Assembly: GCF_000275865.1 (NCBI RefSeq)
Contig: NZ_CM001555.1
Coordinates: forward strand, 1,199,706 to 1,263,705
DNA length: 64,000 nt
Direction of reading: 5' to 3'
Origin: Methanofollis liminatans DSM 4140
GTDB lineage: Archaea; Halobacteriota; Methanomicrobia; Methanomicrobiales; Methanofollaceae
Part shown: one piece after another, positions 239 through 18,893 of the stretch
How positions within the stretch are numbered: position 1 is the first letter of the stretch
How the letters are laid out: every line of letters starts with the position of its first letter
The notes under the pieces: model-generated
What the model was told of the DNA's origin: nothing
Database searches by the model: none
The model's input: only the letters and a program-made list of their open reading frames with translations
Position numbers and translations under genes: made by a program

Positions 239-245
239 GGTGAAC

Positions 246-989
246 ATGAACGAACGAGAGGACAAACCAGGCGGCGTTACCGGGGACGAGGGCAAGAAGA
301 TCCTCTCCACCGGCAATTCAGAGCTCGACAAAAAGATTGCCGACGGCCTCCCTCTCGAATCGCTCACCCTCATCGAGGGGGAGAACGACACCGGCAAGAG
401 CGTCTTGACCCAGCAGATCATCTGGGGCGCCATGCGCCAGGGGCTCAACGCCGACCTCTTCACCACCGAGAACACCAGCAAGAGTTTCCTCACCCAGATG
501 GAATCGATGAGCCTGGATATTTCCGACTACTTCGCCTGGGGCTACCTGCGGATCTTCCCCCTCCACAGCGTCGGTTTCGAGTGGAAGAAGGAGGATATGC
601 AGGGCGTCCTGCAGGCGCTCATCCTTCACATGCAGAAGAGCGTCGCCGAAGTGATCGTCATCGACTCGCTCACCCTCTTCACCGAGTACGCCTCCACCGA
701 CATGATCCTGGCCTTCTTCACCAACTGCAAAAACCTCGTCGACCACGGCAAGACGATCCTCGTCACCCTCCACACCTACGCCTTCGAGGCCGAGACCCTG
801 GTGCGGATCCGCTCCATCTGCGACGCCCACCTCTTCATGAAAAAGGCCCTGGTGGGCAGCAAATACGTGATGATGCTCGAGGTCGGCAAGGTGCGCGGCG
901 CCCAGAAGACGACAGGCAACATCATCAGCTTCGAGGTGCACCCCGGTTATGGCATGAAGATCATCCCGATGACCTTTGCGCGGGTATAA
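246..989 (+). CDS. flaH: Archaellum regulatory ATPase FlaH (ArlH)
   Basis: A RecA/KaiC-superfamily ATPase of about 247 residues that binds ATP and docks under the FlaI motor ATPase at the base of the archaellum. The N-terminal third has the Walker A segment GENDTGKS, and a hydrophobic strand ending in VIDSLTLF gives the Walker B Asp. Length fits the family. The ATG at 246 is chosen because GAGG at 237-240 lies 5 bases upstream; a GTG at 240 in the same frame is the alternative. It sits between the stator fragment and flaI, with 2 bases to the latter, as in most euryarchaeal archaellum operons. Confidence 0.93.
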   Translation: MNEREDKPGGVTGDEGKKILSTGNSELDKKIADGLPLESLTLIEGENDTGKSVLTQQIIWGAMRQGLNADLFTTENTSKSFLTQMESMSLDISDYFAWGYLRIFPLHSVGFEWKKEDMQGVLQALILHMQKSVAEVIVIDSLTLFTEYASTDMILAFFTNCKNLVDHGKTILVTLHTYAFEAETLVRIRSICDAHLFMKKALVGSKYVMMLEVGKVRGAQKTTGNIISFEVHPGYGMKIIPMTFARV

Positions 990-991
990 TT

Positions 992-2854
992 ATGGCCTCC
1001 ACACTGTCCATCCCGATCATGCTCCCCTTCAAGCCCGAGCCCAACGAGGACCTGAGCGGATGCCTGGCCGATCTCGAATCTTCATCCCTCTTTCGGATGC
1101 TCCCGAACAACGCCCGGGAGTACGTCCGCAACAGCCCTCACCTCCTCGAATACCTCAACATCCTGCCGGTGAACACCTACGGCATCCCCCTCTTCTTCCC
1201 TGAACTGACCCGGGATGCCAGGAAAATGGAGAACCTGAACCTGATCTACCCGGCCGGCTCCGACACCTTCATCCACATCCTCCAGGACCCAAACGACGTC
1301 CGGAACTATTACATCCCGATCGAGCCCTCCTTTCTCCACAGCGTCACCTCCCTGATGCCGGCCGTCGAGCACCGCCTCATCGATCTCCTGGACGCCCTCG
1401 ATGAGAACCCCGGGACCGAGGAGGAGCGCGCCGCCGTCCTCAAACGACTGGTCGGGGAGATCGTCTACGTCAAAGGCGAGGGGGAAGATCTCGGGAGCCT
1501 GCTCGGCGGCGCAAACGGCCGGTCCCTGAAGGAGCGTGTCGTCACCTTCTTAAACACCGATTTCACCGCAAAGAAAAAACAGAGCAGCGGGGACGACGAC
1601 GCCGGGATCACCAGGCTTTCAGACGGGCGGATCGTCGTCAGCCAGCAGGAGTACAGCGCCCTCGAGTACCTGCTGCTGCGTGACAAGATCGGGATGGGCG
1701 TTCTCAAGCCTTTCCTCTCAGACCCCTATATCGAAGATATCACCTGCGACGGCGTCGGCCCGATCTTCGTCGAGCACAAGATCTTCAGCGGGCTCAAGTC
1801 CGTTATCGGTTTTACCAACACCCCCGACCTCGACATCTTCGTCATCAAGATGGCCGAGCGGATCAAACGGCCGATCACCTACCGCAACCCGGTCGTGGAC
1901 GCCACCCTCCCGGACGGCTCCCGTATCAACATCGTCTACGGCACCGATATCAGCCGCCACGGCAGCAACTTCACGATCCGTAAGGTAAACGAGGAGCCCC
2001 TCTCCGTCCTCCACCTCATCGAGTCGAATACCTGCGACTACACCGTCGCCGCCTACCTCTGGATCTGCCTGGAGTTCGGGATGTCCCTCTTCGTGAGCGG
2101 GGAGACGGCCAGCGGAAAGACGACGAGCCTCAACGCCATCACCACCTTCCTCCCGCCGGAGAACAAGATCGTCACCATCGAGGACACCCCCGAGCTGACC
2201 GTCCCCCATAAAAACTGGACGCGGGAGGTCGCAAAGGCGAAAGGAAAGAGCGAGGGCGACGGTTCAGAAGTGACCATGTTCGACCTCTTAAAGGCGGCCC
2301 TCAGACAGCGCCCCAACCAGATCCTGGTCGGTGAGATCCGTGGTGTCGAAGGGAGCGTCGCCTTCTCGGCCATGCAGACCGGCCACCCGGTCATGAGCAC
2401 CTTCCACGCCGCCTCGGTCGAGAAACTGATCCAGCGTCTCTGCGGCGACCCGATCAACATCCCGAAAACGCACGTGGACAACCTCAACATCGTCATCATC
2501 CAGAGCGCCGTGCGTCGCCCCGGCGGCGGGACCGTCAGGCGAATGCTCAGCATCAACGAACTCGTCGGCTACGACCCGCAGACGCAGGGCTTCTCCTTCG
2601 TCGAGATGTTCCACTGGGACCCGGTCACCGACCAGCACATCTTCACCGGGAACGGGAGCAGTTTCCTCCTGGAAAACAAGATCGCAACCATGCTCGGCAT
2701 CCCGGAGAGCAAGAGGAACGAGATCTACTATGAAGTCGAGAAGAGGGCGAACATCCTCAAACGACTGCATAACGCCGGATACATCAGGTTCTGGGACCTC
2801 TTCCACATGATCGCCAAGATCAAGAAGCAGGGTCTTCTCACTATCGAGGTCTGA
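992..2854 (+). CDS. flaI: Archaellum motor/assembly ATPase FlaI (ArlI)
   Basis: A type II/IV secretion-system ATPase of 620 residues that powers both assembly and rotation of the archaellum. The C-terminal half carries the Walker A motif GETASGKTTS, an Asp/His-box-like stretch and the Walker B region with ILVGEIRG; the N-terminal part matches the FlaI oligomerisation domain. The open frame extends far upstream through flaH, but the first ATG after the flaH stop, at 992, gives the N-terminus MASTLSIPIM and the usual tight packing. A linker of about 30 residues in the middle (QSSGDDDAG) is polar and probably disordered. It is cotranscribed with flaH and flaJ. Confidence 0.95.
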   Translation: MASTLSIPIMLPFKPEPNEDLSGCLADLESSSLFRMLPNNAREYVRNSPHLLEYLNILPVNTYGIPLFFPELTRDARKMENLNLIYPAGSDTFIHILQDPNDVRNYYIPIEPSFLHSVTSLMPAVEHRLIDLLDALDENPGTEEERAAVLKRLVGEIVYVKGEGEDLGSLLGGANGRSLKERVVTFLNTDFTAKKKQSSGDDDAGITRLSDGRIVVSQQEYSALEYLLLRDKIGMGVLKPFLSDPYIEDITCDGVGPIFVEHKIFSGLKSVIGFTNTPDLDIFVIKMAERIKRPITYRNPVVDATLPDGSRINIVYGTDISRHGSNFTIRKVNEEPLSVLHLIESNTCDYTVAAYLWICLEFGMSLFVSGETASGKTTSLNAITTFLPPENKIVTIEDTPELTVPHKNWTREVAKAKGKSEGDGSEVTMFDLLKAALRQRPNQILVGEIRGVEGSVAFSAMQTGHPVMSTFHAASVEKLIQRLCGDPINIPKTHVDNLNIVIIQSAVRRPGGGTVRRMLSINELVGYDPQTQGFSFVEMFHWDPVTDQHIFTGNGSSFLLENKIATMLGIPESKRNEIYYEVEKRANILKRLHNAGYIRFWDLFHMIAKIKKQGLLTIEV

Positions 2855-2855
2855 G

Positions 2856-4457
2856 ATGTTCGAGTCGTTGAAGGACAGGGTGGTCGGGGCGAACGGGGGT
2901 GAAATACCCTTTGAGGACCAGATCGACGGGATCAGAAAAAAAATCGAGACGCTCTCGGATAACAAAAAAATGGAGGGCGACCTCGTCTTCATGACCACCT
3001 ACATGGCCTCGGCGATGACCGCCAACGTCTCGCGGCCAGAGCTCTTCGAATACACCGCCCGCAGGCACGAGTACATCTCGACCAAATATATCCGCCGGGT
3101 CGTCGATTTCGTCAACCAGTGGCACTACAGTTACTCTGAAGGGCTCACTATGGTGGGCGAGCGCGTTGAAAACCCGATGCTCAGGAATATGTTCAACCGT
3201 TTCGCCAATGCGATCGACTCCGGCGTCCCTGACAGCGAGTTCCTGGCAATGGAGTTGAACACCGCCAGGAGCATGTACCGCAACACCTTCGAGCAGGGCT
3301 TTGAGATGCTGAAGAAGTGGGGCGACGCCTATATCGCCCTGCTCTTCTCCTCCATGCTGGTGGCGATCATCATCATGATCTCGGTCGCCATCTATGCGCC
3401 CAGCGGGATCGACTCCGCACTGAACACCTCGTATGCGCTTGTCCTCCTGACGGCCGGTTTCGGCGTCGGCCTGATGTATAAGGCCGTCCCGGTCGACGAG
3501 AAGACCCTCGACAGCTCGATGAACAGCTGGTGTTCGCGGGAGCAGGCGATGATCCGCCGCCTCCAGACACCGGTGCTTGCGATCACCGCCGTGGCCGCTC
3601 TTCTCCTCCTCCTCATGGGCGTGAACACCGGCATGGTCTTTCTCCTGATCGGCCTCCTCTTCGCTCCCATCGGGATCATCGCCTACGTGGACAACCACAA
3701 TGTCGTCATGCGAGACGAGGACTTTCCCGCCTTTATCCGGGGCGTCGGCTCGATCATGGAGGGGAAGGGCACGACGGTGGTCGAGGCGATCCGGGAGATC
3801 GACCGCAAATCGCTTGTCACCCTTGAACCCGTGATCAACTCGGTCTATACGAAGTTGAACCTCGGCCTCGATGAAGCGCTGGTCTGGGAAAAGTTCATCG
3901 GAGACTGCGGGACAAACCTGATCGCGAAGTACATGAACATCTTTCGGGACTCGGTCGCCCTTGGCGGGGCTCCCGGCGTCATCGGAAAGATCGTCGGGTC
4001 CTCCATGCTCTCGCAGGTGCTCCTGCGCAGAAAGAGGGACATGGTGGCGATGGGCTTTATCGTCCTCCTGATCCCGATGCACATCGCGATGGTCGGCATC
4101 TTCCTGACGCTCTATGAGGTGCTGCACACGATGTCCGAGGCGATCGAGAGCGTGATGTCGACCCTCGGGGAGAGCGGGGCGGCGCTGAGCGGGTCCGGGT
4201 CGGTTGCGGGATCGATGACCGGGTCGATGAACCTCTTCGTCAACTTTCCTGAAGAGCAGATGGTCCCCTATGTGATGACCATCTGCCTGATGATCACGGT
4301 GGCGAACATCTTCGCCGGCAAGATCGTGATGGGCGGCGACCGCTACATGTACTTCTTCCTCTCGGCCGTCCTATTTACCCTCACGGGGCTGCTGGTGTTG
4401 ATCGTCCCGCCGCTCATCAGCAGCTTCTTCCAGATCCCCCAGTTCGGAGCGGTGTAA
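2856..4457 (+). CDS. flaJ: Archaellum membrane platform protein FlaJ (ArlJ)
   Basis: A polytopic membrane protein of 533 residues, homologous to the TadC/PilC platform, that anchors FlaI in the membrane. After a hydrophilic N-terminal region of about 150 residues there are hydrophobic helices near residues 160-220 and 240-285, a long cytoplasmic domain, and a final cluster of helices near 385-420 and 465-525. That two-domain arrangement matches FlaJ. The ATG at 2856 lies one base after the flaI stop. A Gly/Ser/Met-rich loop (near residue 445) separates two of the last helices and is probably extracellular. Confidence 0.94.
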   Translation: MFESLKDRVVGANGGEIPFEDQIDGIRKKIETLSDNKKMEGDLVFMTTYMASAMTANVSRPELFEYTARRHEYISTKYIRRVVDFVNQWHYSYSEGLTMVGERVENPMLRNMFNRFANAIDSGVPDSEFLAMELNTARSMYRNTFEQGFEMLKKWGDAYIALLFSSMLVAIIIMISVAIYAPSGIDSALNTSYALVLLTAGFGVGLMYKAVPVDEKTLDSSMNSWCSREQAMIRRLQTPVLAITAVAALLLLLMGVNTGMVFLLIGLLFAPIGIIAYVDNHNVVMRDEDFPAFIRGVGSIMEGKGTTVVEAIREIDRKSLVTLEPVINSVYTKLNLGLDEALVWEKFIGDCGTNLIAKYMNIFRDSVALGGAPGVIGKIVGSSMLSQVLLRRKRDMVAMGFIVLLIPMHIAMVGIFLTLYEVLHTMSEAIESVMSTLGESGAALSGSGSVAGSMTGSMNLFVNFPEEQMVPYVMTICLMITVANIFAGKIVMGGDRYMYFFLSAVLFTLTGLLVLIVPPLISSFFQIPQFGAV

Positions 4458-4459
4458 GC

Positions 4460-5605
4460 ATGAGAAAACCAGAACTTCCATCGATAAGTCCGAAAACCCG
4501 GCGAACGCTGATCTTTCTGGTGACAGTCGCCGCCGGCACCCTCCTCATCCTCTACGACCTCCCCGCAGAGTACCTGCTGGGAGGGACGATCGCCGCGGGG
4601 TGCATCGTCCTCATCGCCTTCGGTGCGATCAAACTTTCTGACCTGAGGCCAAAGAACATCAGGGAAGGGCTGAAGGCGTGGGTTGCTGAGAGAAAACAGC
4701 GTCCTCTCAAGAAAGAAGCCCCGAAAGAAAAGATCGGCAGCAGAACGGCAGCAGCCTCTGAGGAAAAAGGCGGGAGAGTGCGTGCCGCACTGGCCTCCCT
4801 TTCAGGCGTCGTCCACGGGGGTGCAGGGCGGTTAAAGGCCTCGTTGTTCCACAAAGACGAGACTTTCAAGAAGATCGATATGATCCTTGACGCAGAGATC
4901 GCCGGCGGTGCCGCATCAAACGGGCCCGATACTTCTGCGGCAGTTCAGGGTGGAGCGAACGCTCCGGCCCCGCTCTCGGGTGCGGCCGATCCCTTCTTCG
5001 ACATCAGCGAGGAAGACCTTGAAAACCTCACGCTGGACGGCGAGGAAAGCGACCAGACCGGATCTCCCGTGGATATAACGCTGGACGATGAGATCCCGTC
5101 GCTCGCCTCGAACGATTCGATCGTCTCCGAGATCTTCCGGGCGAATGCCGCCGAACTTGAAGAATTTTCAGAGCTGGGGGACATCAGCGAACTCGACGAA
5201 ACGCTCGGGGAGATCGGCGGTGTCGATCTCGGCGAGGTCGATCTCGACGCCCTCGATCTTTCCGAGGAAGATCTCTCGGAGATCACGCCTGATACCGGAT
5301 CCGAAGACGACATCGCGGAGGCTGCCCTGGCCGACAACGCCTCGATCCTTCCGGAAATCCCCGAAGAGCCAGAAGAGGAGGAGGCCCCTGAAGAGGAGAA
5401 CCTGGTGGCGTTTGCATCGGGCGGCGGTTCCGACTCCCTCATGGACATCCTCAAGAGCGATGTCAAACAGAGGAAAAAAGGAGATTATAACAGCCTTCTG
5501 CGGGGCATGAAAGGGATGAAGATCAACGCGGACGATCTGGTCGACGAACTTGAAGAGACATTGAAAGCGCTTGACGGCGGATCGACGGTGAAGAAACATG
5601 GCTAG
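4460..5605 (+). CDS. Acidic membrane-anchored protein of the archaellum/chemotaxis operon, unknown function
   Basis: 381 residues that I do not recognise as a named family. Two adjacent hydrophobic segments near residues 14-33 and 38-55 form a membrane hairpin. A basic stretch (residues about 65-100) follows, then a very long acidic, Ala/Ser/Leu-rich and probably disordered region (about 170-320). The end is a short amphipathic C-terminal part with LVDELEETLKAL. The gene starts 2 bases after flaJ and its end overlaps the cheF start by 8 bases. It therefore sits between the motor and the archaeal chemotaxis adaptor, where FlaC/D/E switch proteins might be expected. A role linking CheF to the motor is an inference from position only. 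Confidence 0.85.
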   Translation: MRKPELPSISPKTRRTLIFLVTVAAGTLLILYDLPAEYLLGGTIAAGCIVLIAFGAIKLSDLRPKNIREGLKAWVAERKQRPLKKEAPKEKIGSRTAAASEEKGGRVRAALASLSGVVHGGAGRLKASLFHKDETFKKIDMILDAEIAGGAASNGPDTSAAVQGGANAPAPLSGAADPFFDISEEDLENLTLDGEESDQTGSPVDITLDDEIPSLASNDSIVSEIFRANAAELEEFSELGDISELDETLGEIGGVDLGEVDLDALDLSEEDLSEITPDTGSEDDIAEAALADNASILPEIPEEPEEEEAPEEENLVAFASGGGSDSLMDILKSDVKQRKKGDYNSLLRGMKGMKINADDLVDELEETLKALDGGSTVKKHG

Positions 5606-6398
5606 CGTTCCGGTGAAAATTGAAGACGGGGATCGGTGGGCCGTAGCAAAGGTCTCGATCGAGAAAGACGGGCTGAAGGCATCTGGCGACGTGACGCTGG
5701 ACATCCCGTACAGGTCCATCATCGATCTGGAAGCAAAAGGGAATATCCTCATCATCACCACAAAAGAGCGGGAGGACCAGCCCTACAGGCTTGCATCGGT
5801 GGAAAAAGTGCTGAACGTGCTCAAACGGCAGATCCTCCTCTCCTGCAGCGCTTACCGTCTCAGCACCTTCTTTATGTCCCCGGCGATCAAGGGCGGCGTG
5901 CTCGTCCAGAACGCCGTATGGGAAAAAGGAGGGATCGCCGTACTAAAATCCGGGATCTGGTTCTTCTCGCAGGATCACCAGATCTGTGTCCCTCTTTCCG
6001 ACGTCGCCGCGATCGAACTGACAACGCGCGAGGTCCAGGGCAAAGACCTCGATGTCGTGAAGATCGACCATATTGAGGATACCGACGTCGTCACCAGTTT
6101 CGTGCTCTGCCCGCTCACGACACTCCAGGTGCTCTACAATTTCCTCAAGGAATCCACGAAAAGCATGGACATGGACGGTGCCGAACTCGACCCGAAATCT
6201 GCGCAGGTCGCCATGCTCGTCTACAGCGGGATGGACACCGCGGCGATCGAGAACATGCTCGCCATCTCGCATAAAGAGGTCGACCGCGTCTACGATGCCC
6301 TGATCGGTCTCGGGCTCGCAGAGGTCGTGGTAATACGCAGAGAGATTAAACTGACCACAAAAGGTGTCAGATATATCACAGATGCGACAAAAGTATAA
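5598..6398 (+). CDS. cheF: Archaeal chemotaxis adaptor protein CheF
   Basis: 266 residues resembling CheF, the archaea-specific protein that binds phospho-CheY and passes the signal to the archaellum switch. The N-terminal 190 residues are a beta-rich domain with a PH-like pattern. The last 70 residues (from about DPKSAQVAMLVYSGMD) form a helix-turn-helix-like unit ending in a small wing, as in other CheF proteins. The ATG overlaps the end of the upstream acidic-protein gene by 8 bases, so the two are probably translationally coupled. It is the last gene of the archaellum unit; an A+T-rich promoter region follows. Confidence 0.88.
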   Translation: MASVPVKIEDGDRWAVAKVSIEKDGLKASGDVTLDIPYRSIIDLEAKGNILIITTKEREDQPYRLASVEKVLNVLKRQILLSCSAYRLSTFFMSPAIKGGVLVQNAVWEKGGIAVLKSGIWFFSQDHQICVPLSDVAAIELTTREVQGKDLDVVKIDHIEDTDVVTSFVLCPLTTLQVLYNFLKESTKSMDMDGAELDPKSAQVAMLVYSGMDTAAIENMLAISHKEVDRVYDALIGLGLAEVVVIRREIKLTTKGVRYITDATKV

Positions 6399-6430
6399 AA
6401 TTTATAAAATCTCGATGATGTGAAAATAAT

Positions 6431-6463
6431 AATCTATTTATTCTAAACAGATCAAATATTTTT
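6431..6463 (+). promoter_or_regulatory. Promoter region of the che operon
   Basis: The 75 bases between cheF and cheY are very A+T-rich in a GC-rich neighbourhood. TCTATTTATT at 6433-6442 and AAATATTTTT at 6454-6463 both resemble archaeal TATA boxes. The first lies about 35 bases before the cheY ATG, so a short-leader transcript would start there. This suggests cheY and the genes after it can be transcribed separately from the archaellum genes. Confidence 0.6.
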
Positions 6464-6473
6464 AGAGCGCATT

Positions 6474-6836
6474 ATGGGTAGAATTCTTGTCGTCGACGAC
6501 ACACTGTTCATGCGGACCCTCCTGAAAAATATCCTCTTCTCGGGGGGCCATACGATCGTGGGAGAGGCTGAGAACGGCGATGACGCCATCGCAAAATATC
6601 AGGAATTGAATCCCGACCTTGTCACTATGGACATAGTGATGCCGAAGAAGAACGGCATCGACGCCTTAAAGGGCATCAAAACGATCGACCCGAACGCAAA
6701 GGTGATCATGTGCACCGCGGTCGGCCAGGAACAGATGGTAAAACTCGCCGTCAAAACCGGCGCCAGAGGTTATATCGTCAAACCGTTCCAGGCTCCAAAG
6801 GTGCTCGAGGAGGTGAAAAACGTCCTTGGGGCTTGA
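6474..6836 (+). CDS. cheY: Chemotaxis response regulator CheY
   Basis: A 120-residue single-domain receiver. It has the acidic pair D8-D9, the phospho-acceptor Asp53 in the stretch TMDIVMPKKNG, a Thr after VIMC (residue near 83) and the conserved Lys in IVKPF near residue 103. CheA phosphorylates it and in archaea it acts through CheF on the archaellum switch. It is the first gene of the che unit, with cheB starting 2 bases after its stop. Confidence 0.95.
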   Translation: MGRILVVDDTLFMRTLLKNILFSGGHTIVGEAENGDDAIAKYQELNPDLVTMDIVMPKKNGIDALKGIKTIDPNAKVIMCTAVGQEQMVKLAVKTGARGYIVKPFQAPKVLEEVKNVLGA

Positions 6837-6838
6837 TC

Positions 6839-7864
6839 ATGATCAGGGTACTCATCGTCGATGATTCAATATTTATTCGCACAATACTGAAAGATTTCCT
6901 CAGCAAATCTCCGGACATCGAGGTCGTGGGGACGGCGTCCGACGGTGTCGAGGCACTCTCCCTGATAGACGACCTCAAACCCGACGTGATGACGCTCGAC
7001 ATCGAGATGCCCAGGATGACCGGGATCGATCTGCTCAGGAAGATGCCTGACCTGAGCCACCGCCCGAAAGTGCTGATGCTCAGTTCGCTCACCTCGAAAG
7101 ACGCCAGCCATACGAGAACGGCCCTGGCCCTCGGGGCAGACGACTTCATGCTCAAACCGCAGGAGATCTTCCGGGTGCGCGGGATCCAGGAAGAACTCGT
7201 CGCAAAGATCCGGCATCTCATCCATATCGGCCCGGCGGTCAAACAGGACGTTTCCTCGCGCGGTCTTGCCCGCAAGCTGCTGATCTTCGGCTCCTCGGCC
7301 GGGGGGCTCCAGCAGCTCGACCTCATCCTCTCGACGATCTCCCCTGACCTGGACGCCGCCGTCGTCATCACCCAGCATATGCCCGAGGGTTTCACCGCGG
7401 CCCTCGCCGATCGGTTCAACCGGATCTGTCCGCTCCCGGTAAAGGAGTCTGAGAGCGGGTGCATCCTGAATGCCGGTGAGGTCGTGATCTCCAGATCCGG
7501 CGTCCACTCGATCGTCTCGACATTCCTCACGCGGGACGGTCTCTCCGGAGGAAAAATCGTCCATTCCACCGCTCCTCCGGTCCACGCCGTCAGACCGGCG
7601 ATCGACGTGACCTTCTCCACCGCGGCAAAGATCTTCGGCGGGCGGACACTTGCGGTCATCCTGAGCGGCATGGGCAACGACTGCGGCGACGGGGCTGCAG
7701 CCGTCAAAGCGGCAGGAGGCCAGGTGTTTGCATGCAGCGAGGAGGACTGCCTGGTCTACGGGATGGCGCGCTCCGCAATGAAAAAAAATAGTGTCGACAG
7801 GGTCGTTCCTCTCCGGAGGATTCCCGACGAAGTGCAACGGGCGATCACTGCAATGGAGGGGTAA
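6839..7864 (+). CDS. cheB: Protein-glutamate methylesterase/deamidase CheB
   Basis: 341 residues: an N-terminal receiver domain (residues 1-120, phospho-acceptor Asp54 in TLDIEMPRMTG) and a C-terminal methylesterase domain (about 150-341). The esterase domain shows the serine segment GSSAGG, the histidine in TQHMPEGF and the Asp region in SGMGNDCGDG. It removes methyl groups from, or deamidates, chemoreceptor glutamates, opposing CheR. The frame is open upstream through cheY; the ATG at 6839 just after the cheY stop gives the standard MIRVLIVDD N-terminus. Confidence 0.95.
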   Translation: MIRVLIVDDSIFIRTILKDFLSKSPDIEVVGTASDGVEALSLIDDLKPDVMTLDIEMPRMTGIDLLRKMPDLSHRPKVLMLSSLTSKDASHTRTALALGADDFMLKPQEIFRVRGIQEELVAKIRHLIHIGPAVKQDVSSRGLARKLLIFGSSAGGLQQLDLILSTISPDLDAAVVITQHMPEGFTAALADRFNRICPLPVKESESGCILNAGEVVISRSGVHSIVSTFLTRDGLSGGKIVHSTAPPVHAVRPAIDVTFSTAAKIFGGRTLAVILSGMGNDCGDGAAAVKAAGGQVFACSEEDCLVYGMARSAMKKNSVDRVVPLRRIPDEVQRAITAMEG

Positions 7865-7868
7865 AATC

Positions 7869-9779
7869 GTGTCAGATATGGAGGAATACAGGGGTCTGTT
7901 TGCCGTCGAGTCGCGGGAGAACAACGAGGCGATTGCCCGGGCTCTTCTCACCCTCGAAGGGGGTGAAGACCGTGAAATTGTTGACGAGATCTTCAGGGCC
8001 GCTCATACGATAAAAGGCGCCTCGGCCTCGATGGGGTTCATGAGGCTCGAGCAGCTCTGTCATTCGATGGAAGACGTCTTCGACCTGATCAGGAACGGCG
8101 AACTGCGGGCGAACGCCTCTCTCACTGATCTGCTGCTGGCCTGCACCGACCAGATCGATGCGATCCTCGATGCCATTGAGGCGGGCAGAAGCGACGACGG
8201 GGGGACCATCGAGGAACTCGTCTCGGCACTGGAAGTCTGGGTCAACGAGACGCCGTCTGAGGCGGCTGAAGAGGTGCCGGTCTCGAACGACCTGCCCTCA
8301 TCTGAGGACGATGTTCAGGCTCCTGCCGGGGGCCCCTGCTACCAGGTCCTTGTCACGCTCGTCCCCGACTCATCGATGAAAGACGTCAGGGCGATGATCT
8401 CACTCTCGAACCTCGAAGAGATCGGCCGCATCGTCTCGACGAACCCGGACAAAGACGGGATCGAGAACGGGAAATTCGACCGCACCTTCGAGGTGGTCCT
8501 CGAAAGCGCCGCCGGGGCCGATGCGGTCCGGATGGCGGCATCGGGCACCGACATCCAGGAGGTCGCCGTCCGGCCCTGGACAGGCGCGGCAGAGAACCGG
8601 AAGGCCGATGGCGTGGTGCCGAAGGTCGAACACCATGAAAAGAACCGGGAGATCAAAAACATCAGGGTCGACATTCACCTCCTCGACCAGATGATGAACC
8701 TGGTAGAGGATCTCGTCATCAACCGCGGCCGCCTGAAGCAGATCGCACAGAAAAATCAGATCAAAGAACTCGACGAAGCCCTCAATATGGTCGGGAGATC
8801 GGTCTCGGATCTCCAGAACCTGATGATGCATATCAGGATGATCCCCCTGAACCACATCTTCAACAGGTTCCCCCGCGTCGTCAGGGACGTCTCCCAGCAC
8901 GACAACAAAGAGGTGGAGTTCATCATCGAGGGCGGCGAGACCGAACTCGACCGGAGCGTCATGGACGGTCTCAACGACCCGCTCCTCCACCTGATAAGAA
9001 ACGCCGTCGATCATGGGATCGAGCTCCCTGCCGAGCGGAAAGCAGCGGGAAAAACTGAGAAGGGGGTGCTCCGTCTCTCGGCACGGCGCGACCGGGACAA
9101 CGTCCTCATCAGGATCGAGGACGACGGCGCCGGGATCGATTATGGTAAGGTCAGGAAAAAAGCCGTTTCTCGGGGTCTGTACACCGCGGAGGACGCCGAC
9201 GCCCTCAGCGAGGACGACTTGATCGAGGTGCTCTTCAACCCGGGCTTCTCGACCGCCGACGCCATCACCGACATCAGCGGCCGCGGCGTCGGGCTGGACG
9301 TCGTCAGGTCGGCGATCGAATCCCTGAAAGGCTCGATCAAGGTCTCGTCGACGCCGGGAAAGGGCACCTGTTTTGAACTCGTCCTGCCCCCCACCATGGC
9401 GATCGTCGACGTGATGATGGTCAGGATCAACGGCAAACGGTGTGCGATCCCGATCAACAACGTGGTCGAGGTCGCCATGATCAGAAGGGACGCCATCCAC
9501 CGGGTTGGGGCCACCCGGGTGATCCTCCTGAGAGACGAGGTGCTGCCCCTCTTTACGCTGGACGATATGTTCGGCGGTTCGAACGGTGGCGACGTCCTTG
9601 TCGTGCTCCAGAACGGGCATAAGAAGTGCGGGATAGTCTCTGATGTGGTCGAGGGCCAGCAGGAGGTTGTGGTCAAACCGCTCAGTTCTCTCATCGGGAT
9701 CTGTCCGGGTGTGAGCGGCGTCACCATTCCCGGTGACGGCGAAGTGGTCCCGGTTCTTGATGTAAACACGATGATCTAA
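7869..9779 (+). CDS. cheA: Chemotaxis histidine kinase CheA
   Basis: 636 residues with the full CheA order. An HPt domain has the phospho-histidine His46 in RAAHTIKGASASMG. A linker/P2-like region covers about 130-240. Dimerisation and HATPase_c domains follow, with the N box HLIRNAVDHG, the G1 box EDDGAGID and the G2 box GRGVGLDVV. A C-terminal CheW-like regulatory domain covers about 500-636. GTG at 7869 is preferred because GGAGGGG (7855-7861) lies 7 bases upstream; an in-frame ATG at 7878 is the alternative. No separate cheW gene is seen in this window. Confidence 0.95.
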   Translation: MSDMEEYRGLFAVESRENNEAIARALLTLEGGEDREIVDEIFRAAHTIKGASASMGFMRLEQLCHSMEDVFDLIRNGELRANASLTDLLLACTDQIDAILDAIEAGRSDDGGTIEELVSALEVWVNETPSEAAEEVPVSNDLPSSEDDVQAPAGGPCYQVLVTLVPDSSMKDVRAMISLSNLEEIGRIVSTNPDKDGIENGKFDRTFEVVLESAAGADAVRMAASGTDIQEVAVRPWTGAAENRKADGVVPKVEHHEKNREIKNIRVDIHLLDQMMNLVEDLVINRGRLKQIAQKNQIKELDEALNMVGRSVSDLQNLMMHIRMIPLNHIFNRFPRVVRDVSQHDNKEVEFIIEGGETELDRSVMDGLNDPLLHLIRNAVDHGIELPAERKAAGKTEKGVLRLSARRDRDNVLIRIEDDGAGIDYGKVRKKAVSRGLYTAEDADALSEDDLIEVLFNPGFSTADAITDISGRGVGLDVVRSAIESLKGSIKVSSTPGKGTCFELVLPPTMAIVDVMMVRINGKRCAIPINNVVEVAMIRRDAIHRVGATRVILLRDEVLPLFTLDDMFGGSNGGDVLVVLQNGHKKCGIVSDVVEGQQEVVVKPLSSLIGICPGVSGVTIPGDGEVVPVLDVNTMI

Positions 9780-14709: not shown

Positions 14710-15507
14710 TTATTGCACCGGGCTTTTCCCGTAGATCTTCTGCATCGAATCTACCGGGGTGAACAACCCCTCGCTCTCCCGCAGGAGGTACTCCGTCTTT
14801 CCCATCACATAATAGCCCCCCTGCGAAAGGGCCTCATAAAACAGAGTTGCCAGATCTTTCTTCTGTTTTTCATTGAAATATATGGTCACGTTCCGGCACG
14901 AGACCAGATCGAGAAAACGTGCTGCAGGAACGCCTGACATCAGGTCATGGTGAGAAAAGCGGACGATCTCCTTCAGGGTCGGCTTCACCTCGTACTTCCC
15001 GTCCTCCCTGAGCGTAAAGTATCTGCGGATCTGCTGCTCGGTGAGATTTTTAAGGGCTTTTATATCGTAGACCCCCTCCCGTGCCCTGTCCAGGACGACC
15101 CTGTCGATATCGGTGGCATAGATCGTGGCGTCGACCGGGCTCATGCGCATATATTCCCTGACCAGGATTGCATAGGAATAGGCCTCCTCGCCGGTGGCGC
15201 ACCCAGCACACCAGATCCGTATTTTTTTGCGCGTCCCCAGGACGTCCGGGAGGACCTTCTGGCCGACGGCCCTGAAGACATCGGGATCCCGGAAAAACTC
15301 CGTCACGTTGATGGTGAGTGCGTTTTTGAGACTCTCTTTCTCCCCATTATCCAGAATGAGGAAGCGGTGGTAGTCCTCAAACGTCTCCTTGCCCGAGATA
15401 CGCATGCGGGAGAGGACCCGGCGCTTGATATAGTCCTCCTTATACTGGGACGTCCTGATCCCGACGATCCGTTCGATCGTCCTGTTCAACGAGGTGAAAT
15501 CGTCCAT
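14710..15507 (-). CDS. cheR: Chemoreceptor methyltransferase CheR
   Basis: 265 residues that methylate receptor glutamates using S-adenosylmethionine. An N-terminal all-helical domain (about 1-75) is followed by the Rossmann-type methyltransferase domain with IRIWCAGCATGEEAYSYAI (the SAM-binding motif), a DIDRVVLDRAR segment and DLVSCRNVTIYF. It is the last gene of a minus-strand operon, starting one base after the chemoreceptor stop, and complements CheB of the che operon about 7 kb away. Confidence 0.95.
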   Translation of the reverse strand: MDDFTSLNRTIERIVGIRTSQYKEDYIKRRVLSRMRISGKETFEDYHRFLILDNGEKESLKNALTINVTEFFRDPDVFRAVGQKVLPDVLGTRKKIRIWCAGCATGEEAYSYAILVREYMRMSPVDATIYATDIDRVVLDRAREGVYDIKALKNLTEQQIRRYFTLREDGKYEVKPTLKEIVRFSHHDLMSGVPAARFLDLVSCRNVTIYFNEKQKKDLATLFYEALSQGGYYVMGKTEYLLRESEGLFTPVDSMQKIYGKSPVQ

Positions 15508-15508
15508 A

Positions 15509-18001
15509 TCAGCCTATTTTGAACATGTCCATCTTGCGCTTCAGATCGGCGGAAAGGCTGGCGAGTTCGTGTGCGGCACTCCCGACCTCCTGCGTCGAGG
15601 CGCTGACCTCCTCGGCGAGCGCGGCCATGTCCTCGACCCGCGCGAGGTTCTCCTTCGTCCTGGAGGCCGCCTGTTCCATCATCTCCATCACATTATTGGT
15701 CGCATGTGCCTGGTCCTCGGTGGCCCGCGTGATTTCGGTGATCGCGTTTGCGGCGTCGTTGATATCGGCACTGATCTTGGTGAGGGCATTGATCGCCTGT
15801 TTGACGCTGTCGATCCCCTCCTGGATCTCCTTGTGGGAGGAGCGCATCGAATCGGCGGTTTTCTCGCTCTCTTTCTGGATCGCTGCGATCAGTTCTTCGA
15901 TATGCTGGCTTGCCTTTCGTGAATCTCCTGCAAGGTTCCTGATCTCGCCGGCGACGACGGCGAAGCCCCGCCCGTGCTCTCCGGCGCGTGCCGCCTCGAT
16001 CGCCGCGTTCAGGGCGAGCAGATTGGTCTGGTTTGAGATCTCGTTGATGAGTTTGACGATCTTGGTGATCTCGTGCATCTGGGCGTTCAGGTGCACAATA
16101 TCCGCCACCGTCTGCTCTGAGATGGTGCCGACCGACTCCATCTTATTATAGGCAACCTTCCCGATCTCAGCACCTGCAGCACCTTCCTGCGATGAATTGA
16201 CCGCTTTCTTCATCACTTCCTGTGTCGTGCTGGCGATCTCTTCGATCGACGCTGAAAGGTCGGATATCCCCCGTGTCACCGATTCGATATTGCCAAGAAG
16301 GTTCCGTGTCGCCTCGGAGGACTGCTGGGTTGCAAGAGCGACCTGCTCAGTTGCTTTTCCGATATCGGCGGCTCCTCTGCTGGTCTCCCGCGCATTTTTC
16401 TCGACGATGGAGGCCACGCTGTTTACCTCCTCGATCGTCTCCTTAAACCTCTGGATAGAACTGTTATAATCCCTCTTCACCGTTGCAAGCAGGTCGTCTT
16501 TTCCGATCCTGGCCTCCTGCGAAAGATCGCCCTGCGCCACAATCTCCATCACGGCTCCCAGTTCGGCGGCGTTTTCTTCGAGTTTTTTCCCTCTCGCCTC
16601 CACTTCCGCCAGGATACGCTTGATCTCGTCCTCTTTTTCCCGCCGCTTTGTGATATCGTTATAGACGACAAGGAGGCTCTCCAGGTTTCCGTCTTCGGAG
16701 ATGAACGGGATGCCGTACTGTTCGAGGATATGCACCCCCGAAGGGAGCTCGACGGTCACCTCTCCATAGCAGCGCTTCTTTAACTGGACCGCCTGTTTGA
16801 GCCCCTCACCTTTCTGCTCCACGATGGTGAAGGAGCGTGCGTTCATGCCACTGAGTCGTTCGAGCCTGATCCCTGACATCGAGGCATAGGCCTCGTTTGC
16901 AGAGGTGACCGTGAAAGAGGGATCGAGGAGGAGGATCGGCATCGGGTTCTGGTCCACGACGACCTGGGAGCGGCGCTGCAACTGCTGGATTGTGTCCATC
17001 TCCTCTTTGAGTTCCTCCTCTTTCTTCCGCTCCTCGGTGATGTCGTTATAGACGACAAGGATGCTCTCCAGGTTTCCGTCCTGGGAGAGGAAGGGGATGC
17101 CGTACTGTTCGAGGATGTGGACGCCCGAGGGGAGATCGACGGTCACCTCGCCGTAGCAGCGCTTCTTTAACTGGACCGCCTGCTTGAGCCCCTCACCCCG
17201 CTGTTCGAGGATCTTGAAGGTCCTGGCGCTCATGCCCACCAGGCGTTCGAGCCTGATCCCTGACATCGCGGCATAGGCCTCGTTTGAAGAGGTGACGGTG
17301 AAGTCGGCGTCCAGGAGGAGGATAGGCATCGGGTTCTGGTCCACGATGGTCTGGGCGCGCCCCTGCAGTTCGGCGATCATGGCGAGTTCCTCTTTCAACT
17401 CCCGCTCTTTCTCCCGCACCGCCGTGATGTCGTTGAAGACGAAGAGCGCCTGCACGACCTCCCCGCTCTCGTCGGGCATCGGAATGCCGTACTGTTCGAG
17501 GACCTTCTTTTCGCCGCCGACGGTGAATTCGAGGACGCTCAGGGTTTTCCTGCCTTTCGAGAAGACGATCTCGGTTTTATCGCCGGAGAGCAGTTTTATG
17601 GCCACCTTTTTCCCGGTGCCGGCGAGGATGCGCTCGCGGCTCTCCCCGATCAGGTCGCAGTACGCCTGGTTGACATCGAGGGTCTCCAGGCCGCGGTCCA
17701 CCGTCACCATCGGCATCGGGCTCTCGCCAAAGACGATCTGCTGCCCGGTCTGCACTGTCCGGTGCTCGTGGATCGCCGTCGCCGCATGGCTGACGACCTC
17801 GGCCAGGCCCCTCAGGTTGGCCGGAAAACTCCCGGGATCGATCCCGGCCGGACTGCCGCCCGCAATGACGCTCTGCAAGAACGCTGCGATCTCCTCGATC
17901 TCCGCTCCTGCCACCTGGTCCTCTGCAGCCTTCTCGAAGCCGTTCCCGTTCAGTGCCGCAGGGGCGGCGAACAATGCCTTTCTGCCCAGTTTCTCTGTCA
18001 T
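15509..18001 (-). CDS. Cytoplasmic methyl-accepting chemoreceptor with three PAS domains
   Basis: 830 residues with no transmembrane helix or signal peptide, so a soluble receptor. After about 90 helical residues come three PAS domains (about 100-215, 225-340, 345-460). A short HAMP-like segment ([20 protein letters not shown]) follows, then the signalling coiled coil with the conserved hairpin around [41 protein letters not shown]2 and PAS3 are near-duplicates. Of three consecutive ATGs, the one at 18001 has GAGGGG 6 bases upstream. The ParA-like gene ends 10 bases before it and cheR starts directly after it. Confidence 0.93.
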
Positions 18002-18011
18002 CATCATCCCC

Positions 18012-18839
18012 TCATTTCTTCCAGTGCCCGACGGTCGATGCAATCTTCCTGTAGGCCTGACCGGCCGGACAGTCGGGTGCATAATGAGATATCGGGAGAC
18101 CCTTCCGCTGTGCTGCCGGAACCTCCGGAGAGAAGGGCACCGTTTCAACCATCATAAATGACGCCGAGACGCGCTCATCGATCGCTTCCGGCTCTATCCT
18201 CTTTTCCCGCTGAGAGAGGAGTCCGAGAATTGCGTCGAGAAGCCCCGCTCTCTGCCCCTGCACAGGGCTTTCCTGGCTCATGATTGCAATCTCTGCCCTG
18301 ACATCCCCGCCGATGTTCTCGCGGATGTCCTGAAATATCGCGTTCATGGTCTCGATCCCCTCGAGGGCGAAGATGCCGGGGTCGAGATTTACGATCGTGT
18401 GATCCGCTGCCACGAGACCGTTGATCACAAACTGACCCATGCTCGGGGGCGTATCTATCAGGACCATATCGTAATTGGGCGAGATCTCATCGAGCGCATC
18501 TCTCAGAACAGTTGCCCTGCCTTCAGACTGGTAGAGATATGGTTCGGCACCGACAAGGTCCAGGGTGGAGGGCACAAGGTCGATCCCGGATGCCGTCCTG
18601 ACGATCAGGTCCCTGATGGATACTTCTGGAAACCCCTCGAACCTGCTCATAAAGAGATCATAGATGCTGGTCTCCAGGCCGGTCGGGCTGATGCCAAGAC
18701 CTGAAGTTGCATTTGCCTGGGGATCGCAGTCCACGACCAGGACGCGTTCTCCGGACTTTTGAAGATAGCCTGCAATATTAAGACAGGACGATGTCTTTCC
18801 CGTTCCTCCCTTGTGATGGGCAAATGCAATACGCGTTAT
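18012..18839 (-). CDS. ParA/Soj-type ATPase, start codon non-canonical (ATA or ATT)
   Basis: About 275 residues of the ParA/MinD family. It has the deviant Walker [12 protein letters not shown], the second motif [11 protein letters not shown], and [11 protein letters not shown] (Walker B/switch). There is no ATG, GTG or TTG between the upstream in-frame stop (near 18891) and a GTG at 18734 that lies beyond the P-loop. The most natural start is ATA at 18837-18839, which would read (M)[11 protein letters not shown], with GGGTGAG 3 bases upstream. ATT at 18830 is the alternative. It leads an operon with the cytoplasmic chemoreceptor and cheR, suggesting a role in receptor-cluster positioning, as known for PpfA/ParC-type ParA proteins in bacteria. 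Confidence 0.85.
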
Positions 18840-18881
18840 GGTCTCACCCTGATATGTGAATTTTGCATGAAAGATTATAAA

Positions 18882-18893
18882 GATTTATATTTT
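18882..18893 (-). promoter_or_regulatory. TATA-like element upstream of the ParA-like gene
   Basis: On the minus strand this reads AAATATAAATCT, a good archaeal TATA box in an A+T-rich stretch. Transcription would start about 20 bases before the proposed ATA start, leaving room for the GGGTGAG ribosome-binding site. This supports initiation close to 18839. Confidence 0.6.

Follow-up and report, generated by a model that had tools for sequence, protein, structure and literature searches.

Sequence comparison indicates that the parA-like gene of Methanofollis liminatans DSM 4140 starts at a conserved AUH codon (AUA, AUU or AUC) preceded by a strong Shine-Dalgarno (SD) sequence, and that this start is neither a lesion nor an error. 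It is very likely that an AUH start is used in M. liminatans and in those relatives in which no alternative start is available. Together, the observations are best explained, in our opinion with good probability, by a functional ParA-type ATPase that would be translated from AUA in this species and from AUU, AUC or AUA across its order, and that would be scarce relative to its cargo.

The reading frame and start region of the M. liminatans gene

The DNA analysed, called here the window, is a stretch of 64,000 nt (GCF_000275865.1, NZ_CM001555.1, 1,199,706-1,263,705), and positions are given in window coordinates. The parA-like gene lies on the minus strand (18012-18839) and encodes an AAA_31/ParA P-loop ATPase of 275 aa. 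The open frame extends from 18884 to 18012 and lies downstream of an in-frame TAA stop (18885-18887, minus strand) located 16 codons 5' of the ATA codon (18837-18839, minus strand). A previous examination of the letters alone, the sequence-only reading, had claimed that the stretch from the upstream stop to the P-loop (KGGTGKTSS) contains no ATG, GTG or TTG. The window sequence and the ORF lists bear this out: canonical codons are absent in frame from the TAA down to a GTG at 18732-18734 (minus strand), and none of the 15 open codons preceding ATA, the 16th being the stop, is a canonical start. A downstream start was rejected, since this GTG, the first NTG of the gene, falls beyond the P-loop and is unusable as a start.

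The gene product matches Pfam AAA_31 (2.5e-46). The match begins at residue 18 of the stop-to-stop frame, aligned to model position 3, which places model position 1 at the ATA codon, where the family's Met had been expected. In the AlphaFold2 model (pLDDT 84.6) the first strand is formed by residues 2-8 counted from ATA, and thus the protein would be complete if ATA is the start. The deviant Walker A motif KGG.GKT and the ParA fold place the protein in the ParA/MinD P-loop ATPase family. It resembles the Soj/ParA proteins in its P-loop fold, in this motif and by profile comparison with their structures (best match 6iub, 3.6e-40); it differs from them in that no parB is seen alongside the gene in the window locus, where the neighbouring partner is a chemoreceptor (MCP).

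Of 46 window ORFs, greedily chosen, eight have a late first NTG codon; the parA-like gene is the only scanned ORF whose domain begins before its first NTG codon. A missing NTG start in one genome alone is weak evidence, and chance is ruled out because the non-NTG start recurs order-wide.

The signals noted ahead of ATA, GGGTGAG and a TATA box, were both located on the minus strand. The SD (AGGGTGAG, 18843-18850) pairs with the 3' end of the organism's own 16S rRNA (GGATCACCTCCT) and is separated from ATA by a gap of 3 nt; the GGTGA that pairs with the 16S 3' end lies 4 nt upstream of ATA. The TATA-like box (TTTATAAT, 18874-18881) is found about 42 nt 5' of the start codon. Among the orthologs, the SD region is conserved, and a TATA-like motif is present within -75 to -22 in 66 of 112 sequences, against 21 in a control interval of equal length, with a peak at -45 to -41. 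Given the position of the TATA box and the SD, the leader is predicted to be short and to contain just the SD.

Conservation and evolution of the start codon

We searched 232 genomes of the order that holds Methanofollis, Methanoculleus and Methanoregula (a class-level search gave the same 232 genomes) and found a parA ortholog in 113 of them, distributed over 24 genera and including complete single-contig genomes; families f3 and f6 of the order gave no match to parA among the matches listed. The start codon was read nine positions before the P-loop Lys. It is ATT in 61 orthologs, ATC in 23, ATA in 18, ATG in 10 and ACG in one. The sequence-only reading had named ATG at this position in relatives as evidence against initiation at ATA; the position is non-ATG in 103 of the 113 orthologs, with ATA, ATT or ATC in 102, and it is also ATA in the two nearest relatives, both in Methanofollis (L031, 87% identical, and L067, 63%). 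The same non-AUG state across nearly the whole order argues for a maintained feature rather than a mutation or a sequencing error. In 51 of the 103 non-ATG genes, the window gene included, no ATG, GTG or TTG occurs in frame after the upstream stop and ahead of the P-loop, and 19 of these 51 carry an in-frame stop at most five codons upstream. In L026 and L146 the upstream TGA directly abuts the ATT. A check for downstream starts found TTG immediately after ATT in four orthologs.

Some individual loci were also observed. At L171 (G022) the start position reads ACG and the SD, GGGGTGA, is strong; the relatives of this ortholog have ATA. One genome (G123) contains two ParA copies, L163 and L164, one with ATG and no clear SD and the other with ATT followed by TTG. 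In two draft genomes the ParA copies (L193 in G170, L192 in G121) appear broken or partial, with a frame change or an internal stop.

Several properties distinguish the start codon from an internal Ile codon. Of the 16 alignment columns with an Ile majority, only that of the start codon lacks Val and Leu (0/112 as compared with 5-41% in the other columns; pooled Fisher P about 3e-10, phylogeny ignored), and the first base of the codon is A in 112 of 112 sequences. The lack of Val and Leu and the invariant A fit a constraint on the codon, AUN read by the CAU initiator anticodon, and not a buried Ile residue. ATT dominates at the start position, while internal Ile codons favour ATC. Downstream of the start codon, variation is greater at third codon positions than at the other two, a periodicity that is absent upstream.

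At least 25 changes of the start codon occurred on the tree within the order, of which about five involve ATG. A model with ATG at 80%, chosen to represent ordinary genes, fits much less well (lnL -114.2 vs -92.1), so the usual preference for ATG is missing at the parA start. ATG in the 10 orthologs corresponds to about five independent switches, which indicates that the non-AUG codon is dispensable. The mean dG of the SD duplex is -9.1 in non-ATG orthologs vs -6.9 in ATG orthologs, the SD thus being stronger in the former (Mann-Whitney P 0.0002, phylogeny not corrected). In one clade of ATG-starting orthologs (L154, L162, L166, L163, L173, L174) the SDs are weak or displaced, as if start codon and SD strength compensated each other.

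The nearest ParA proteins outside the order have an ATG start in all 10 sampled genes, which come from one family, and the MinD/ParA paralogs sampled in the same genomes start with ATG or TTG. The AUH start is thus a property of this gene in this clade, and not of initiation in these organisms generally.

Alternative readings of the start

The sequence-only reading had left two possibilities: either ATA initiates translation, or an ATG mutated recently and the gene was disabled. The former is supported by the orthologs. The latter, taken together with a sequencing error, has almost no chance of being correct: only the codon itself speaks for it, and against it stand the non-ATG codons of 103 orthologs, many of them in complete genomes, which make the state old and order-wide, the intact frame, and a dN/dS of about 0.1-0.2 between near relatives. 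The gene is intact and under purifying selection, and a pseudogene was rejected since neither relaxed selection nor a broken frame is seen.

Another reading places the true start at a canonical in-frame codon upstream, such as the GTG of the Methanoculleus sequence GGGGTGCTGGAT-ATT, the Ile being then internal. An in-frame GTG indeed lies three codons upstream in about 37 orthologs, mainly Methanoculleus; 32 of the non-ATG orthologs offer no other canonical candidate, a few further cases being mixed, and it is conserved in the 33 sequences of the Methanoculleus group that we compared. However, no in-frame upstream start exists in the window gene and 50 other non-ATG orthologs, and the sister genus of Methanoculleus (L123, L131) has the same GGGGTG out of frame. 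This GTG sits inside the SD, the region upstream of the AUH codon has no codon periodicity and, with a TATA box near -44, an SD serving the GTG itself would be expected roughly where the transcript is predicted to begin, or ahead of that point. We consider this reading improbable. Still less credible is translation from an out-of-frame start, either the ATG of a mini-ORF upstream or the GTG contained in GGTGA, followed by a programmed frameshift or by stop and restart into the ParA frame. Most orthologs do have some out-of-frame NTG whose frame stays open as far as the start, and in many cases this is the GTG within the SD; in the window an ATG at -29 opens a mini-ORF that ends at ATA. But the frame, position and length of such ORFs are not conserved, and no slippery site shared among the orthologs was seen; in the window, the frame of the GTG stops after three codons and the ATG at -29 precedes the point at which, judging by the TATA box, the transcript should begin.

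A last reading accepts the AUH start as real and takes it as purposeless, the strong SD allowing the third base to drift neutrally and the resulting output being tolerated. We give it an appreciable, if minor, probability. A model that disfavours G at the third base brought no significant gain over the neutral third-base model (P = 0.13); the sequence therefore does not prove a purpose, and we do not claim that ATG is actively avoided. On the other hand, the third base shows a surplus of T (lnL -87.6 for the all-free model vs -93.2), the MinD paralogs and the outgroup retain canonical starts, and SDs tend to be weaker in the orthologs with ATG, as if overall output were kept down.

Chemosensory neighbours and a possible role of weak initiation

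The gene downstream of parA (15509-18007, minus strand) encodes a PAS-PAS-PAS-MCP chemoreceptor (Pfam PAS/MCPsignal), in which no hydrophobic 19-mer exceeds KD 1.15, that is, a soluble receptor with no transmembrane segment. It is followed by cheR (14710-15507, minus strand; Pfam CheR, 1.9e-53). The start of the MCP gene falls within 8-14 nt of where parA ends, and the order parA-MCP-cheR is common to many relatives. A cluster with T2SSE/T2SSF (archaellum-type), cheF, cheB and cheA lies nearby on the plus strand (239-9776). Near the N-terminus of the protein encoded just downstream of parA, a GRKALF motif was found at 84 of 113 loci with a strict pattern (in the window at 17970-18007), and variants GRRGLF or GRKVL occur at other loci; the adjacent gene of a large Methanoregula-type clade is without the GRKALF motif. 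We take this N-terminal motif to resemble the ParA-activating peptides at the N-terminus of ParB.

In Rhodobacter sphaeroides PpfA, a ParA homolog encoded beside a soluble receptor, positions the cytoplasmic cluster via the receptor N-terminus (PMC3964821). The window gene, beside chemoreceptor and che genes, is placed like an orphan ParA of the PpfA/ParC type. The likeness to PpfA-TlpT is that, within a che locus, an orphan ParA is encoded beside a soluble chemoreceptor, and the N-terminus of TlpT is believed to work in the manner of ParB; PpfA differs in being bacterial, the interaction of the archaeal pair being putative, and the text consulted on ppfA reports no non-canonical start (PMC3964821, PMC9178275). 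By analogy, the parA product probably helps to position the chemosensory machinery, and the ParB-like N-terminus of the MCP may serve as the ParA cargo adaptor, as TlpT does for PpfA. The locus points to an archaeal ParA-chemoreceptor positioning module.

As for initiation itself, SD-anti-SD pairing would dock the 30S subunit at the AUH codon, where the initiator Met-tRNA (CAU) would pair with the first two codon bases only. Such a near-cognate start should be slow and subject to proofreading by aIF1, a factor that destabilises non-AUG complexes in vitro (PMC6237735), and would hold ParA at a low, roughly fixed level compared with the chemoreceptor whose gene comes next in the operon. That the weak start serves to keep ParA scarce relative to its cargo is a suggestion that we make tentatively, giving it somewhat less than even chances. 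We regard as unlikely, though conceivable, an archaeal form of IF3/infC-type control, in which a gene-specific AUH start, retained throughout the order, couples ParA synthesis to initiation fidelity through the level or activity of aIF1; if true, array positioning would follow the state of the translation machinery.

Conserved non-AUG starts are already known in bacteria, in infC and sigR. Bacterial infC has a conserved AUU start with an SD, a likeness to parA; it encodes the discriminating factor itself and is autoregulated, whereas the parA product is an ATPase unrelated to initiation. The non-canonical start of infC is mentioned as documented in the study of sigR (PMC5472188). The window gene shares with the infC/sigR type a non-NTG codon class that recurs at the homologous start in many species, the lack of a usable canonical start and a strong SD, the second feature being ambiguous for Methanoculleus-type genes with an in-frame GTG. 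In Streptomyces, sigR has a GTC start with a strong SD, is repressed by IF3, and the GTC start keeps the first operon gene below the second (PMC5472188). It is the closest tested precedent for a low ParA output: both cases would combine a conserved non-canonical start, an extensive SD just upstream (AGGAGGTG in sigR), a first position in the operon with the second product needed in excess, and a start misannotated by gene finders. They differ in that sigR is bacterial, with GTC, in one genus and with IF3 repression known by experiment, whereas parA is archaeal, with AUA, AUU or AUC, order-wide and known from sequence comparison.

The start codons given for archaea are AUG, GUG and UUG (PMC7531240), and our search of open papers found no report of an archaeal AUU, AUA or AUC start. 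The parA start, found by comparison, is an order-wide and gene-specific exception to this set, and it therefore provides a natural experiment on the stringency with which start codons are discriminated in archaeal initiation, aIF1 included. Gene finders that accept only NTG will truncate or mis-start such genes.
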